NCBI GenBank assembly: GCA_003833135.1
Contig: QZLH01000986.1
Span: 15,823-27,852, forward strand
DNA: 12,030 bases
Reading direction: 5' to 3'
DNA from: Oehlia diaphana
Lineage: Eukaryota > Glomeromycota > Glomeromycetes > Glomerales > Glomeraceae
Positions 2,176 through 11,961 of the stretch are shown here, one piece after another (the first letter of the stretch is position 1; every line of letters starts with the position of its first letter). Under the pieces are notes generated by a model. The model had not been told where the DNA came from. It saw only the letters and a list, made by a program, of their open reading frames with translations, and did no database searches. The translations under genes were made by a program, and so were the position numbers.

Positions 2176-2314
2176 ATGGCTCTAAGTAACGATAAAGGTA
2201 AAAGCATATAATATGAATATAGATATCTGATACAAATTAAAATTATTCTAAAATTTTTTTCAAACCAAATTTGCAATATAATGTAACAAGTTTCAAAAAT
2301 TGAGAAAGATAAAG
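2176..2314 (+). other. Candidate first two exons leading into the mini-intron array
   Basis: The ATG at 2176 opens a 22-nt exon (2176-2197, MALSNDK plus one base) that ends at a GTAAAA donor. A second segment ends in the same GATAAAG|GTAA context at 2314/2315, 117 bp downstream, which is one array period. If its acceptor is the AG at 2289-2290, exon 2 is 24 nt (2291-2314), the frame stays open and the phase is unchanged. The alternative acceptor at 2303-2304 gives an immediate stop. The CAAG acceptor is weaker than those in the array. The repeated exon edge suggests that the first unit arose by tandem duplication across an exon-intron boundary. The exons are too short to recognise a product. 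Confidence 0.3.
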
Positions 2315-4721
2315 GTAAGAAAATTACTTAACAGCTTGTAAATTATAAACATATAATTTAAATATTTTATATTATTTCTAAAAATTATTTTACTATATTA
2401 GCTCGTAAGTAATAGGCTATCTTAGTATAATCGGCATGATAATTAAATTACTTACTTCTATTATTTTATATAACCAAATAATTTATTTTATTATTAATAT
2501 TATAGTTGGTAAGTTAATAGCTATTTATTTTATTGTATTTTACATGATATTTTAAATAACTAAATTTCTATTAATAATAATTACTAATATTATAGAAAGT
2601 AAGTATTTAATTTTATATCAATTAAAAGTATTTGTATATAATTTAAACTAATAATATATTTATTTAAATAATCAATTTGTAAGTTACTGTATATACTTAA
2701 AATACAATTATAATATTTTATCTAATTGATTATAATTACTTTACTTTGTAATTATTATTAATTAATAATGCTACAGGGTGTAAGTTAGTTATTTAATCTA
2801 TTATATTAATATAATATTTATATATTTACATATTACTTAAACTAACAAAATCCTTTATTTAAAAAATGATTTTGTAATTTCTTTTAGTTGGTAAGTTATA
2901 AGGTATTTATTCAATTCTATCATATTTATATAATACTATTGTATTTACATATAATTTAAACTAACTAAATTCTTTGTTTAAAAAATTATTTTGTAATTTC
3001 TTTTAGTTGGTAAGTTATTTAATTTTATTATATTCATATAATATTTATATATAATTTGAATTAACTAAATTCTTTGTTTAAAAAATTTTCTTTTAGTTGG
3101 CAAGTTATAAGTTATTTATTTAATTCTGTTATATTAATATAATATTTATATAACTAAATTCTTTATTTAAAAAATTATTTTGTAATTTCTTTTAGTTGGT
3201 AAGTTATAAGTTATTTATTCAATTCTATCATATTTATATAATACTATTGTATTTACATATAATTTAAACTAACTAAATTCTTTATTTAAAAAATTATTTT
3301 GTAATTTCTTTTAGTTGGTAAGTTATAAATTATTTATTTAAGCCTATTGTATTTATAATTTTATATAATATTTACATATAATTTAAACCAACTAAATTCT
3401 TTATTAAAAAAATTATTTTGTAATTTCTTTTAGTTGGTAAGTTATAAGCTATTTATTTAATTCTATTATATTTATATAATATTTACATATACTAATTTAA
3501 ACTATCTAAATTCTTTATTTAAAAAATTATTCAAATATTTCAGAACGTAAGTAATTTATTAATATTTTCATAATATTTACATATAATTTAATTAACTAAA
3601 TTCTTTATTTGAAAATTATTTATTTAATAATATAGGGAGTATGTTATTTATTTAATTCTATATAATATTTACATATAATTTAAACTAACTAACTAAATTC
3701 TTTATTTAAAAAATTATTTATTTAATATAGGGAGTATGTTATTTATTCTATTGTATTTATATAATAATTACATATAATTTAAAACTAACTAAATTTTTTA
3801 TTTAAAAAATTATTCAAATATTTTAGATCGTAAGTAATTTATTATATTTATATAATATTTACATATAATTTAAACTAACAAAATTCTTTATTTAAAAAAT
3901 TATTTATTTACTAATAGGGAGTATGTTATTTATTAATTCAATTATATATATATAATATTTACATATAATTTAAACTAACTAAATTCTTCATTTAAATATT
4001 TTAGATCGTAAGTAATTTATTATATTTATATAATATTTATATATGATTTAAATTAACTAAATTCTTTATTTAAAAATTATTTTGTAATTTCTTTAGTTGG
4101 TCAGTTACAGTATAAGCTATTTATTTAATTCTATTGTAGTATTTATATAATATTTCTATAATTTTAACTAACTAAATTCTTTATTTAAAAATTATTTTGT
4201 AATTTCTTTTAGTTGGTAAGTTATAAGTTATTTATTTAATTCTATTATATTTATATAATATTTACATATAATTTAAACTAATTACATGATTCTTTATTTA
4301 AAAAATATTTGTAATTTCTTTTAGTTGGTAGGTTATGTTATTTGTTTAATTCTATAGTAATATTATATAATATTTACATATAATTTAAACTAACTAAATT
4401 CTATATTTAAAAAATCATTCATTTAATAATATAGGGAGTATGTTATTTATTTAATTTTATTACACTTATATAATATTTACATATAATTTTTAAACTAACT
4501 AAATTATTAAAAATCATTTAAAATATATATATTAGCATGTAAGTATCACATTTTTAATTATGATAATCCTATATTTTTATATTAATTTATTATAACTATA
4601 TAATCTTTTTAAAAATTTTGGTAATTTATTTTAGTTGGTAAGTTATAAGTACTATTTATTTAAATTTAAATTAATTAACTATTTGTTATATTAAAATCTT
4701 ATAATTTTAATTAGAGTAAGT
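2308..4721 (+). repeat. Tandem array of about 24 intron-like units separated by 3-nt micro-exons
   Basis: Each unit has a donor (GTAAGT in most), an AT-rich body, a branch-point-like CTAAC/TAACTAAA usually about 40-45 nt before the acceptor, a T-rich tract and an AG. Exactly three nucleotides follow before the next donor. The 3-nt segments start at 2402 CTC, 2506 TTG, 2596 AAA, 2777 GGT, 2888, 3007, 3097, 3196, 3315 and 3434 TTG, 3544 AAC, 3636 and 3731 GGA, 3827 ATC, 3918 GGA, 4005 ATC, 4097, 4213 and 4325 TTG, 4435 GGA, 4536 CAT and 4635 TTG. Site 2676 (TTT) has AA in place of AG, and 4715 has a single A. Of the 22 regular sites, 15 donors are GTAAGT, 4 GTATGT (all after GGA), and one each GCAAGT, GTCAGT and GTAGGT. 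The intron-like spans are 77-116 nt. That the sequence contains these motifs is directly visible. That they are spliced is inference. The alternative is one long intron filled with a minisatellite. Confidence 0.8.
3318..3436 (+). repeat. Representative complete unit of the array
   Basis: This is a typical 119-bp unit: donor GTAAGT at 3318-3323, branch-point-like AACCAACTAAA near 3386-3396, the T-rich tract TTTCTTTTAG ending at 3433, then the TTG trinucleotide at 3434-3436 followed directly by the next donor. The units ending at 3009, 3317 and 3436 all have 116-nt intron-like spans, so this is probably the parental form. Shorter units (84-93 nt, at 3547-4007) have lost part of the body but kept both splice signals. 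Confidence 0.7.
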
Positions 4722-5020
4722 ATAATTAATATTATATTTTCAATTGTAGATTTATTTTAAATTTTGATTTTAATATAATTATAATTTCATTTTAATCATA
4801 TTTAAGATTTGGTACTAGTGGAAGTGAAATTATGGATCAATTTATTTCTGAAAATAAATTATAATGGATTCCTTATGATAAGTTTGAAAATATTGAATAT
4901 CTTGATAAAGGAGAATTTGGTACTATATATAAAGCTAAATATAATAGTATTGAAGTAATTCTCAAATATTTTGATTATCTTATTAATACAGATGAAAGTT
5001 TAAATGAATTTTTAAATAAT

Positions 5021-5099: not shown

Positions 5100-5756
5100 T
5101 GGAAAATTATTGATTCAAATGAAATTATTAAAATATATGGATTTACAAAAGATCCAGATACTTTGAATTATGTATTAATAATAGAGTATACAAATAAGAG
5201 TAGTTTAAAAAGATGTTTAACAGAAATAACAAAAAATTGGGAACAAAAATTATTTTATTTATATCAAATTATTAAGGGTCTTAATGATATTCATGAAAAA
5301 GATCTTAATCATTACAACTTTCATAATGGTAATATTTTATGTAACAAATATGAAGAAGATTTTTATTAGTAATTATTTTGGATTATACCAACTTGCAAAA
5401 TCTTTTTTAAAAGAAAGTAATATCTATGGAGTTTTACCATTTATAGCACCTGAAATTTTAAGAGGTCAACCTTATACTCAAGCTAGTGATATAATAGTTT
5501 TTCTATGATTATGTGGGAATTTGCATCTGGAATTCCACCATTTAATGATAAAGTACATGATCTTCAACTTGCTTTAAATATTTGTAAAGGTGAACGTCCT
5601 GAAATTATTGAAAATACTCCACAATGTTATTTGGAATTAATGAAAAAATGCTGAGATGAAGATCCATTAAAAAGGTTATCTTCTAAAGAAGTTTTAAATA
5701 TTATTAAAAATTGGATTTTTTGTTCTTCAAATAAGAAAATTAAATATATTAATAAA

Positions 5757-7120
5757 GAATTAAAAAGCAATATCATGGAATTTATAAATGCACCAATTGA
5801 GCATAATAACCTTATTGTAAAATCTCATCCAAAAGAATGCTATACAAGTCATTTACTTGATTTTACTAGTAAAGAATTAAGTGAGATTCTAAAAGATTCT
5901 CAAGGATTTCTTGAATTAAAACAAAAATATCAAAATTCTCAAAACAAATTAGAAAATATTCAAATGGAATTAGTTAATTTACAACAAAACCCAACTTTAC
6001 AAAATTAAGAACTTGCAGAAAAAGAAAGTGCTTTACAAAGCCAAATTACAAACCTGCAAAGTGAAAAGCAAGATTGGATGGTAAGTTGACTGAACAGTTA
6101 AAACAAAATCAGTCAGTTAAATCAAGAAAAAAATAATCAGCAAGATAAATTAGTCCAAGCAGAAATTATTATTCAAGAATTAAAATCTCAGCAAGAAAGC
6201 TTAACTGAACAAAAAGAGCAATAAAAGATCAGGTTACACAATATGGTAAAAGGTCTTTCACTAGAACAAAAGCTTACAACTAAATTGAAAACCAAGTTGG
6301 AAAAAGAAATTGTTCAATTAGAACAAAAATTGATTATTGAAGAACAAATCAAAATGCAATTAACTCAAGCTTTACAGATAAAAGATGATAAAATGAATGA
6401 ATTAGAAAAGAAACTTGTTACTCTTGATCAAGAGTGTATTAAGCAGTTAAAAGACAAAGAAAAAGAATTGAATAAAATTCAAAAGGAATTATTAAATAAA
6501 TTAACTAGTGGAGAAACTACTAAGGAAATTCATAAAGAAAAAGAAGCTAAACAAAAAGAGATGAATGAACTTCGACAAGAAATATCAAGAACTTTAGCTT
6601 CTTATGATGCCAAAAGAAAAAAACAGATTCTCAATTAAGTTAATAATTTTCTGAAAACTAAGGGTAATTTCCTAACTTTACGAGAAGAAGCTATTAAAAA
6701 GCTACAAAATTGCTGTAATCGTTTAGAAAGCTCCATTAATGAGGAAAGAAATACTATAGGCTCTATCAGAGATATAAAAATCTCCAAATTGACTGACAAA
6801 TATACTAATGAATTTCAAAGTACTCTTGTAAAATATAATGATGGATTATTAGAGCTGAACAAAAATTATTATTCCTTAAAGAATGAGGTTCAGGAAAATA
6901 AAGAGTTGGAAGTTAGTCTCATAATTGAAAATATTCTTAAGTTGAATTCTTTCAATCTTGATAAATACAAAATTTTTAAGTTTGCTACAAATTCTCAGGA
7001 AGGAACCAAAATTCTAGCATGATGGAAGAAGATATAAATTCATTAAGAAAGAATTTGAATGAATTGAGATTAGAATTAAACCAAGAAAAAAATGAATTAA
7101 AAAATTTAGCAACAGTTTAG
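5757..7120 (+). other. Coiled-coil tail region of the kinase pseudogene
   Basis: After a linker with the segments FINAPIEHNN and SHPKECYTSHLLDFTSKEL, the translation becomes rich in Lys, Glu, Gln and Leu with heptad-like Leu/Ile spacing. The longest open pieces are 5775-6005, 6243-6635 and 6789-7019, all in one frame. They are separated by single stop codons (6006, 6222, 6636) and by a short frame detour at about 6071-6110. The last 33 codons (7019-7117, starting MMEEDIN) are in another frame. The region would have served oligomerisation or partner binding; that role is inferred only from composition. Confidence 0.7.
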
Positions 7121-7886: not shown

Positions 7887-7950
7887 TATATAAATATGTA
7901 TTCTATTTTTATTTCCCCCTATTTTTTTTTTTTTTTTCCTTCAAAGAAAA
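7887..7950 (+). promoter_or_regulatory. Core promoter and leader of the F-box gene
   Basis: TATATAAATA lies at 7887-7896. A pyrimidine tract (CCCCCTATTTTTT and a long T run) follows at 7916-7939. The ATG at 7951 is preceded by AAAGAAAA, a favourable A-rich start context. Confidence 0.5.
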
Positions 7951-9138
7951 ATGTCCAAACTTAATAAAGATATTCTTTTCTTGATATTTGAGGAATTACG
8001 TGATAATCCAAAATTCCTTTTTTCATGCTTAATGGTTAACAGAGTTTGGTGTGAAACCGTGATTCCAATTTTATGGAGGAACCCCTGGCGCTATGCTATA
8101 AAATATTATAATAAAAATTCTTTATATTCTATTCTTACTTCTTACTTGTCCAACGATATTAAAGAATTCTTCGCAAAGAAAAAAATCAACATTCCAGGTC
8201 AATCAATTGCATTTGATTATTTGTCTTTCTGTAAGAGTATTAATATAGAAATTATAGATATTATAATTTCCATTGGATCAGAATATAATCGATTTCTTTT
8301 GAAAGAGGAAATTTATAGTTTCTTGATGAAGAAATGTCCAGAAATAAAGTATTTAAATATATGTGGCACCTATGATATACTACATCTTCCAGAAGCAAAG
8401 TTCCGCCTTGAATCACTTTGTGAATTAACGTGTCACACATTGATTAATCCTAAGTATTTTTACAGATTAGCACATATCTGTCAACAAATACAAAGCATCA
8501 TCATTATTAATAAAAACTTAAAAGCTAATCCTGGGACTACTAAATTAATCGAATTTCAAAAAAATTTGAAATATTTTGAATGGGTAGATGAATTTGAAGT
8601 AGAAAATGACATGTATTATTGGGAAATGTTGGAAGATCCTTATACAGAAATTTTTAATGCATTAAAGAAGCATGCAAATACTCTTAATCATTTTCAGTTT
8701 GATAATTCATTAGATAATTACCATGATGATGGTGATTATACATTTCTACAAGACGCACTCCTAGAACTTCATAATATAAAAATATTAAAAATTAGTTCTC
8801 CTCTATTGTCAAATAATGATGATTTTAATAAAAAATTGGAAATGGTGGCTTATCGTAACCTTGAGTTTATAGAAATTGATTTTATATATATTTACCAAGT
8901 TAATTACATAATTAAAAATAGCTTATTTCTTAGAGAATTAAAGATCAATCATTTTTGTATAGAAAAAGATTCCTTTAATGATGATTCTCTTAATTTTATT
9001 CGTACAATTTATGAAAATTGTTTTTTAATTGAATATTTAACAATTCCTATGTTTCCATTATTGGAAAATTACTTTATTGAATTCAGAATTTACGATCTTT
9101 ATATTTTAAAGAAGAATATGAAAAAGGGAAGGGTTTAG
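7951..9138 (+). CDS. F-box domain protein (truncated by frameshift)
   Basis: A 395-residue open frame. Residues about 3-45 match an F-box: LNKDILFLIFEEL, then CLMVNRVWCE and IPILWRNPW. F-box proteins bind Skp1 and bring substrates to the SCF ubiquitin ligase. The rest is rich in Leu, Ile and Asn with irregular LRR-like spacing (for example CPEIKYLNICGTY and LRELKINHF), which would hold the substrate surface; no target can be named. Expanded families of such F-box/LRR-like proteins are typical of Rhizophagus genomes. The start follows a TATA box and an A-rich context. The last residues, from about FRIYDLYI onward, are out of frame with the natural C-terminus, which continues in another frame to 9380. 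The stop at 9136-9138 is therefore probably premature. The protein may still be made with an altered tail of about 15-20 residues. Confidence 0.8.
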   Translation: MSKLNKDILFLIFEELRDNPKFLFSCLMVNRVWCETVIPILWRNPWRYAIKYYNKNSLYSILTSYLSNDIKEFFAKKKINIPGQSIAFDYLSFCKSINIEIIDIIISIGSEYNRFLLKEEIYSFLMKKCPEIKYLNICGTYDILHLPEAKFRLESLCELTCHTLINPKYFYRLAHICQQIQSIIIINKNLKANPGTTKLIEFQKNLKYFEWVDEFEVENDMYYWEMLEDPYTEIFNALKKHANTLNHFQFDNSLDNYHDDGDYTFLQDALLELHNIKILKISSPLLSNNDDFNKKLEMVAYRNLEFIEIDFIYIYQVNYIIKNSLFLRELKINHFCIEKDSFNDDSLNFIRTIYENCFLIEYLTIPMFPLLENYFIEFRIYDLYILKKNMKKGRV

Positions 9139-10668: not shown

Positions 10669-11211
10669 AGCTGTAAACAGGCAAAATCGTCTGATCGGTG
10701 AATTTGACCGGAAGGAAAAATTGGCCGGATGGAAAATTTGTCCGATAAGCAAATTAGTACCAGATTTCAGACGATATATATACGACCGATCGTGGAGGTT
10801 TTGAAAAAAGTGTATGGTTTTATTTTTAAAAAGATAGATATACAAATATTACAGAGCGCCGACAGAGGCAGTAATATTGTATTTTATTTAAGTGTTAATA
10901 AACCCTGCCTATTTGTTTCCGATTTCTTACAATTCGTTTATTTGATTACAGTGTTCATTAGTATCTTGCGTTACATATAGTTTAATTATCTATACACAAT
11001 TTATTTTTTTCGATTGTCAACTAATTAATATATACACGTTTTAATTACTTCATTGTTCATTTACTGATTGCTCATTATTTGCGTACACATTATCCGATTT
11101 ATTTCACCACTTGATATTTAACGTCATATTATCTTGCTGATTATTACCGATCCTTATTTATCTTTCTGTTACTACCTAACCGAACGTTAAAAACTGGTGG
11201 TCTGTTCATTT
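10669..11211 (+). mobile_element. LTR-like repeat, copy B
   Basis: The direct-repeat partner of 9592-10136, about 1.06-1.1 kb downstream. It carries GCCGGATGG, a TATATATA box at 10775-10782, TGGAGG, the core AGATAGATATAC at 10832-10843 with ATTACAGAGCGCCGA, AATAAA at 10897-10902, GTTTCC, GTGTTCATTA and GTTACATAT. Compared with copy A it has an insertion of about 20 bp after GTTAC near 11174. The divergence is too great for the two LTRs of one recent insertion. Two independent old insertions of related elements, or a duplicated segment, are more likely. Short open frames across it on both strands are by-products. Confidence 0.45.
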
Positions 11212-11896: not shown

Positions 11897-11961
11897 CCGA
11901 AAATAAGCAACCCCCGAAAATAAGCAACTCCTAAAATATTTAATACCCGAAAATAAGCAAC
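11897..11961. repeat. Short tandem repeat of CCGAAAATAAGCAAC
   Basis: Three perfect 15-bp copies start at 11897, 11914 and 11947. The spacing is 17 and 33 bp, so a degraded copy (CCTAAAATATTTAATAC, from 11930) probably fills the larger gap. GC-containing repeats of this kind often mark the ends of DNA transposons, but the window ends before a partner could be seen. Confidence 0.6.

Follow-up and report, generated by a model that had tools for sequence, protein, structure and literature searches.

A 12,030-nucleotide (nt) stretch of the genome of the glomeromycete Oehlia diaphana (contig QZLH01000986.1, positions 15,823 to 27,852, forward strand; hereafter the window) carries a member of a family of kinase genes in which, as we read the sequence with considerable confidence, a segment of the protein is encoded by a chain of 3-nt exons, all of them spliced to their direct neighbours and each unit contributing one residue. 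The evidence comes from the spacing of the splice signals in 30 related arrays, from the distribution of stop codons at the junctions between exons, and from the way in which the arrays meet the flanking coding exons.

An array of putative 3-nt exons and its relatives

On the forward strand of the window, 22 sites at which an AG acceptor and a donor are separated by three nucleotides (AG-N3-donor) span positions 2402-4637. Twenty of the donors fit the strict pattern, the remaining two being GTCAGT and GTAGGT, and a single GC donor stands at 3100. The trinucleotides are of eight types (CTC, TTG, AAA, GGT, AAC, GGA, ATC and CAT), in the order CTC TTG AAA GGT, then TTG six times, AAC GGA GGA ATC GGA ATC, TTG three times, and GGA CAT TTG. 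This recount agrees with an initial annotation of the same DNA, which had reported 22 such sites, eight trinucleotides and one GC donor. Its range of unit lengths, 77-116 nt, is right for most of the array, where the introns between the 3-nt exons measure 84-116 nt and the last intron (4638-4714) 77 nt, but not for one gap of 178 nt (2599-2776), where the acceptor of a middle exon has probably been lost. The array as then described stands; what had been overlooked are two coding exons upstream (2176-2197 and 2291-2314), a 1-nt exon at 4715 and the kinase exons from 4807 onward.

A search of the window's own genome (108.8 Mb in 1,672 contigs) with the window stretch gave at least 130 matches to related arrays on at least 39 contigs, 40 of 216 candidates having been scored. 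The 30 arrays analysed here comprise the window and the 20 loci taken first, which together make up 21 derivation loci, and nine hold-out loci; loci L001-L008 were retrieved but left out of the analysis. The largest cluster in each locus was kept (600-nt rule), by which a doubtful site in L025 counts as its 32nd exon, across an unfilled gap. In all, 1,096 three-nt exons were mapped, 19-76 per array, of which 59 are weaker sites placed into wide gaps. Only 37 wide gaps hold no recognisable unit, as against the 1,096 exons found, a comparison that, unlike the conservation of AG and GT, is not circular.

The length of the exon is specific. Under the strict pattern, each of the 21 derivation loci has 18-69 sites with an exon of 3 nt and 0-4 with an exon of any other length up to 12 nt. 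The strict sites of these loci also served to build a position matrix for acceptor and donor that is blind to exon length; it found 715 matches for an exon of 3 nt, 13 for one of 1 nt, 21 for one of 7 nt and 0-2 for each other length from 0 to 15. The 21 matches of 7 nt, which in all likelihood come from reading GTAAGTAA donors a second time, were discarded as exons. Applied to six hold-out loci, the matrix gave 185 matches at length 3, seven at length 1 and none at any other length up to 15. Across the genome, TATAG-N3-GTAAGTNAT occurs 763 times (nine times for the reversed-pattern control), compared with 14 times for the same signals around N2 (control 25), three times around N4 (control 37) and 15 times around N6 (control 11). 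This strict genome-wide pattern recovers 296 of the 1,096 mapped exons, so that, by rough extrapolation, some 2,800 exons of this kind may exist in the genome.

Stop codons are avoided where adjacent exons meet

If the exons are read in phase 1, each junction codon takes its first base from the end of one exon and its other two from the start of the next. Stops among these codons were compared with shuffles that reorder exons within loci, and junctions across the 37 unfilled gaps, including one stop in L033, were left out. The derivation set has one stop in 728 junctions, against 26.8 ± 4.1 after shuffling, and the hold-out set two in 301, against 17.3 ± 3.1, with a minimum of six in 3,000 shuffles. 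When distinct neighbour pairs are taken once, after removal of two outlying strict sites (the first in L025, the last in L021), one stop is left in 336 pairs, compared with 5.5% in the shuffles. For 35 codons the expected number is four or more; in this group depletion is strongest for TAG (0 vs 20.8) and TAA (1 vs 15.2), TGA (2 vs 8.3) ranks seventh, and TGG and GAA are the most enriched. The two other phases were rejected: phase 2 gives 129 stops in the derivation set and 35 in the hold-out set, and phase 0 fits neither exon 2 nor the join to the kinase.

The avoidance is a property of direct neighbours, as a comparison by lag, the strongest of the tests, shows. At lag 1, three of 1,029 junctions are stops, against 44.2 after shuffling (z -8.0), whereas junctions that pass over between one and seven exons do not clearly avoid stops: the counts for lags 2 to 8 are 43, 40, 41, 26, 32, 35 and 34, where shuffling gives 41.9, 39.3, 37.0, 34.9, 32.7, 30.7 and 28.7 (z -1.9 to +1.2). 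Lag 5 is slightly low (z -1.9), and none of these lags comes near lag 1. Junctions of direct neighbours are thus kept open and skipped products are not, which suggests, from the sequence, that neighbouring exons are joined in the messenger RNA and translated.

Conserved ends and the join to a kinase

Both ends of the arrays are conserved. Twenty of the 30 arrays open with CTC or CCC, and in these the fourth exon of the array is ATT in 17 and the fifth is GGT, which supplies a tryptophan codon, in 16; all 20 have T(T/C)N as their second exon, which makes leucine the invariant second residue. Read in phase 1, these arrays start A-L, mostly A-L-x-x-W. At the other end, 21 of the 30 finish with CTT, CCT or CAT followed by TTG or TTA, which gives F-E or F-K ahead of FGxSGN-like kinase residues. 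Between the two ends, both the length and the sequence of the peptide change from one locus to another, with R, N, E, L, D, F, W, K and Y abundant.

Upstream of the arrays, exon 1 is MA(L/Q)SNDK-like across loci, and exon 2 is either VSKIEKDK-like or acidic and VSGNIEFEGSS-like; both end in phase 1 in the models built. Downstream, a 1-nt exon (TTTAG/A/GTAAGT) is present in 24 of 27 loci, as A in 21, G in two and T in one, three of the 30 loci having been excluded for too little downstream sequence and a spurious L022 site not being counted. The base is G in L012, and L022 has no clear 1-nt exon. In most loci the acceptor of the first kinase exon (K1) is in phase 2 (A TTT GGA AAA AGT...), and the 1-nt exon would carry the frame over to it from phase 1. 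With all 3-nt exons in phase 1, a glutamate codon would be assembled across three exons from the final G of the array, the A of the 1-nt exon and the opening A of K1.

Gene models were completed in 15 of the 21 derivation loci, the window being among the six left incomplete, and the 1-nt exon was entered as A in all 15, despite the G of L012 and the unclear case of L022. Exon 1, exon 2, the array, the 1-nt exon and K1 make a single open frame in 13 of the 15, the exceptions being L011, with a stop in K1, and L026, with a stop in the array and a truncated kinase frame. The completed models begin with hydrophilic residues. A kinase domain was recognised by Pfam in the L025 reconstruction (PF07714, E 1e-40, and PF00069), and the kinase frames contain VILK, HCDFHDGN and DLG, which we take to be kinase catalytic motifs. 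The in-frame join to the kinase, together with the near absence of stops at adjacent junctions, supports the first proposal of complete mini-introns separated by single-codon exons. As a separate observation, L013 has more kinase-like frames downstream of its first kinase, which suggests tandem kinases or a fusion. The features of the window are collected in Table 1.

Table 1. Predicted exons of the array gene in the window, with positions counted from the first nucleotide of the window.
Feature	Positions	Strand	Basis or remark
Exon 1, MALSNDK plus first base of next codon, ends in phase 1	2176..2197	+	conservation across loci
Exon 2, V SKIEKDK plus first base of next codon, phase 1; donor GTAAG at 2315	2291..2314	+	present in related loci
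3-nt exon 1, CTC	2402..2404	+	splice-signal pattern
3-nt exon 2, TTG	2506..2508	+	splice-signal pattern
3-nt exon 3, AAA	2596..2598	+	splice-signal pattern
178-nt gap	2599..2776	+	probably two introns; donor-like GTAAGTTA left near 2679
3-nt exon 4, GGT	2777..2779	+	splice-signal pattern
3-nt exon 5, TTG	2888..2890	+	splice-signal pattern
3-nt exon 6, TTG	3007..3009	+	splice-signal pattern
3-nt exon 7, TTG, GC donor	3097..3099	+	splice-signal pattern
3-nt exon 8, TTG	3196..3198	+	splice-signal pattern
3-nt exon 9, TTG	3315..3317	+	splice-signal pattern
3-nt exon 10, TTG	3434..3436	+	splice-signal pattern
3-nt exon 11, AAC	3544..3546	+	splice-signal pattern
3-nt exon 12, GGA	3636..3638	+	splice-signal pattern
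3-nt exon 13, GGA	3731..3733	+	splice-signal pattern
3-nt exon 14, ATC	3827..3829	+	splice-signal pattern
3-nt exon 15, GGA	3918..3920	+	splice-signal pattern
3-nt exon 16, ATC	4005..4007	+	splice-signal pattern
3-nt exon 17, TTG, donor GTCAGT	4097..4099	+	splice-signal pattern
3-nt exon 18, TTG	4213..4215	+	splice-signal pattern
3-nt exon 19, TTG, donor GTAGGT	4325..4327	+	splice-signal pattern
3-nt exon 20, GGA	4435..4437	+	splice-signal pattern
3-nt exon 21, CAT	4536..4538	+	splice-signal pattern
3-nt exon 22, TTG	4635..4637	+	splice-signal pattern
1-nt exon A, TTAG/A/GTAAGT	4715..4715	+	conserved in sister loci
Kinase exon K1, ..FGTSGSEIMDQFI..., glycine loop GEFGTIYKA; in-frame stop 4862-4864 here	4807..5020	+	
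Kinase exon K2 and coiled-coil-like tail, end approximate	5100..7100	+	one long frame in several sister loci

Deposited protein models and the fate of the array

Independent annotation has also picked up array exons, as two deposited proteins of Rhizophagus diaphanus (Oehlia diaphana in the NCBI taxonomy) are partly spelled by them. The first, P0003, agrees with locus L025 at 99.3% across 298 residues, which suggests that the genome belongs to this species. Its N-terminal DEWWNRMVEF corresponds to 10 of the 31 three-nt exons of L025, in order and in phase 1, a fit achieved by no 10-mer in two sets of 100,000, one random and one shuffled. The second, P0010, is spelled in phase 0 by 24 of the 30 exons of L026, all within a run of 25. 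Separately, P0004 of R. irregularis has a segment like exon 1 and exon 2 (ALSNDKVSGNIEFEGSSTEEFEG) fused to an unrelated DUF8211 domain, perhaps through a model error or a domain swap.

That P0003 and P0010 use subsets of the exons speaks for alternative inclusion, in which combinatorial skipping would give many protein variants per gene, as in the micro-exon genes (MEGs) of schistosomes; all array exons being 3 nt long, any subset remains in frame. We nevertheless regard this as unlikely: the stops at junctions that skip one to seven exons, near the shuffled rate as noted above, indicate that skipped products are not kept open, and the skips in the two models look frame-driven, while the evidence behind those models is not counted here as RNA proof. 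The earlier suggestion that the array is a source of variable-length proteins accordingly gains support between gene copies, in which the number of exons varies, and not within one gene, where skip junctions show no clear stop avoidance.

Less probable still is excision of the entire array as a single long intron, or of all but the 1-nt exon, with the splice signals as relics or decoys and the kinase produced from a join of exon 2 to K1. The deposited R. irregularis models do have little between exon 2 and the kinase, and the path from exon 2 through the 1-nt exon to K1 keeps the frame. An untranslated array, however, has no reason to lose stops in phase 1 at adjacent junctions only, nor to keep exactly 3 nt between its signals, and a direct join of exon 2 to K1 breaks the frame.

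Introns and the unit of descent

In the set of 1,018 introns with 60-135 nt spacing, the median length is 95 nt (5-95%: 78-112), and the lengths are spread evenly modulo 3 (357/328/333). CTAAC occurs 547 times and its complement GTTAG 12 times; a branch-point-like motif, which the initial annotation had seen in most units of the window, is found in 835 of the introns, and TAAC in 772, at a median of 37 nt before the intron end. The GT(GC)-AG ends, the mostly GTAAGT donors and the branch-point-like motif are features of U2-type introns, the ends being partly required by the search. Because the units look like full introns in length and, mostly, in branch-point-like motif, the serial or recursive splicing that had been considered at first needs no recursion, although the frame signal agrees with one residue per step.

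The codons differ far more than the sequence around them. Between nearest-neighbour introns (856 pairs used, 65 of 921 having been excluded as outside 72-97% identity), the intron body differs by 7.1% and the flanking exons by 40-56%. For exon-centred pairs with flanks less than 2% different, the exon mismatch is 36% (84 pairs), and in 16 colinear stretches (at least 250 nt, 85-90% identity) exons differ by 31% and the intron body by 8.3%. Single-base exon differences number 77, 41 and 26 at exon positions 3, 1 and 2, which are codon positions 1, 2 and 3, so that the wobble position has the fewest. These sequence comparisons make diversifying change of the array codons likely and no more than that, the pairs being chosen by similar flanks and not independent.

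The best intron partner lies in another locus in 687 of 921 pairs, as exchange would give, though whole-locus shared ancestry is not separated in this count. Acceptor and donor types share 0.57 bits across the same exon, above shuffles, and 0.13 bits across the same intron. This tie across the exon indicates that the inherited unit is acceptor, codon and donor, with breakpoints inside introns, and the arrays likely grow and reshuffle one codon at a time. Exon-centred units with breakpoints in introns also support intron multiplication by tandem duplication, one of the possibilities raised at the outset.

Insertion of introner-like mobile elements between the codons of a once continuous segment would explain why the introns are alike and the intervening exons different, and some introner families make target duplications of 3-9 bp (PMC9860276). 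We give this origin a marginally smaller chance than removal of the array as one intron, as acceptor and donor match across the exon and not across the intron, and exact 3-nt spacing through 19-76 units would not be expected; both explanations were judged unlikely on the spacing, stop, lag and acceptor-donor tests. An ordinary AT-rich minisatellite containing AG-N3-GT by chance, already doubted in the initial annotation, is hardly credible: the units are indeed tandem repeats, but the frame and spacing tests contradict it, with intron length free while the exon holds at 3 nt, 3-nt specificity genome-wide, and a strong excess of CTAAC over GTTAG.

A model for the arrays and the evidence against it

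From the anatomy, spacing, frame and conserved ends, which can be read directly from the DNA, we infer how the chain of 3-nt exons is spliced, that its inclusion is constitutive and that it is translated. The spliceosome would join each 3-nt exon to its direct neighbour, each unit adding one residue, with about one intron per codon. Splicing would be constitutive and probably by intron definition, because a 3-nt exon gives exon definition no room. Translation would yield a variable N-terminal segment of approximately 19-76 residues, in most cases with an ALxxW start and an FE end. Less firmly, we suggest that this segment may serve as a rapidly changing surface for binding or regulation, by which the kinase is tuned or targeted. 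Recombination within the similar introns would lengthen, shorten and reshuffle the arrays, and single codons would move as cassettes, amounting to exon shuffling at codon resolution.

A more far-reaching version is conceivable, although we lean somewhat against it. This would be a codon-by-codon gene with an intron within every codon, up to 76 exons being faithfully spliced and the protein edited one residue at a time through intron recombination; the homogenised introns would serve as tracks along which single codons are exchanged, and the kinase family would be a mycorrhizal diversity-generating recognition system.

A number of observations weigh against translation of the chain, or limit the tests that favour it. 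Of the 92 wide gaps in the 30 arrays, 37 are without a candidate 3-nt exon, which means that a number of units are disrupted or contain inserted sequence. Stops in frame occur in L026, L034 and L037, which were counted, and in L033, across an unfilled gap and uncounted. The window copy is itself damaged, with an in-frame stop in K1 and its kinase part broken into several frames, and neither a 1-nt exon nor the K1 motif was found in the downstream stretch read for L030 and L033. The non-stop codons CAT (z -3.9) and GGG (z -3.6) are depleted at junctions as well, exon order being non-random in other respects, and neighbouring exons are weakly correlated through descent; the shuffles thus overstate independence. 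Between units GT differs by 1.0% and AG in 0 of 1,712 comparisons, but this conservation is largely circular, because the units were found by their AG and GT signals, and we dropped it as an argument. The excess of codon over intron divergence rests on non-independent pairs chosen by similar introns or flanks, and that in colinear stretches on 16 stretches with 207 exon sites.

The deposited models also contain unfavourable points. P0003 skips 21 exons of L025, and P0010 uses another frame, L026 having a phase-1 stop, and seems to need a 2-nt exon. In R. irregularis, models P0001, P0002, P0007, P0008 and P0009 have similar flanking exons but short, differing stretches between exon 2 and the kinase, without the ALxxW start. 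A database search with the type-A reconstruction (L018) returned 20 candidates, none of which matched.

Relation to known systems

Schistosome MEGs have exons mostly of 15 bp (their range is given as 3-81 bp in the abstract and as 6-81 bp in the text of the paper), mostly in multiples of three, with 10-20 exons per gene; their introns measure between 100 bp and about 5 kb, and their products are secreted (PMC10526429). The arrays resemble them in having many successive very short exons in a multigene family that is hard for automatic annotation. They differ in that their exons are 3 nt long, where the MEGs are recognised by a chain of mostly 15-bp exons (PMC10526429), and run 19-76 in a row with introns of about 95 nt, in kinase genes. 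A single 3-nt micro-exon is spliced by the ordinary spliceosome in Drosophila homothorax and others (PMC7392893); there it is one alternative exon per gene, and here a chain of dozens. Single-nt exons that keep the frame are described in Arabidopsis APC11 (PMC4674806) and Fusarium CYP621A (PMC12940212), and like the A before K1 they are needed for the frame, but those are isolated cases, whereas the 1-nt exon of this family recurs in 24 of 27 loci, after a chain of 3-nt exons, and takes part in one codon over three exons.

As regards evolution, a comparable case is the gene family of Podospora het-d and het-e, in which WD repeats are exchanged within and between paralogues, with concerted evolution and diversified chosen residues (PMC1805685). 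In that family the repeated unit belongs to the protein and has four variable residues, while in the arrays what is homogenised resembles an intron and a single codon varies; by this analogy the array may work like het-d/het-e without being a member of that system. Introners, too, give many similar introns in a single genome (PMC9860276, PMC4457414), but the intron is the copied unit in those, and the unit of descent here is centred on the exon, across which the acceptor-donor tie runs.

The word microexon was not found in the available portion of the R. irregularis annotation made with nanopore RNA (PMC10234402), and among the matches listed in the literature, with subscription journals and preprints outside the coverage, there was no description of chains of single-codon exons. 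Single 3-nt and 1-nt exons have been reported as isolated cases. If the chains read here from the DNA are real, the spliceosome can work by pure intron definition without a usable exon, and the arrays offer a natural extreme test of splicing mechanics. They would likewise place exon shuffling at its limit, where intron recombination inserts, deletes or swaps one amino acid and leaves the frame intact. For mycorrhizal fungi, the arrays point to a hidden and poorly annotated variable segment of a kinase family.

Other features of the window

An AT-rich short element with CACCGG/GATGATCACC-like ends lies near the window start (140-260). Motifs that match it occur in five of the 37 unfilled wide gaps (two in L010 and one each in L016, L020 and L028), inside enlarged micro-introns, and the element may be a miniature transposon that introns tolerate. 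One long frame on the forward strand at 7894-9138, containing MSKLNKDILFLIFEELRDNPKFLFSCLMVNRVW, has no Pfam match at E 0.001; by eye it looks like an F-box protein of arbuscular mycorrhizal fungi. Two short 17-bp tandem repeats, at 10704-10744 and 11897-11961, both lie outside the array.

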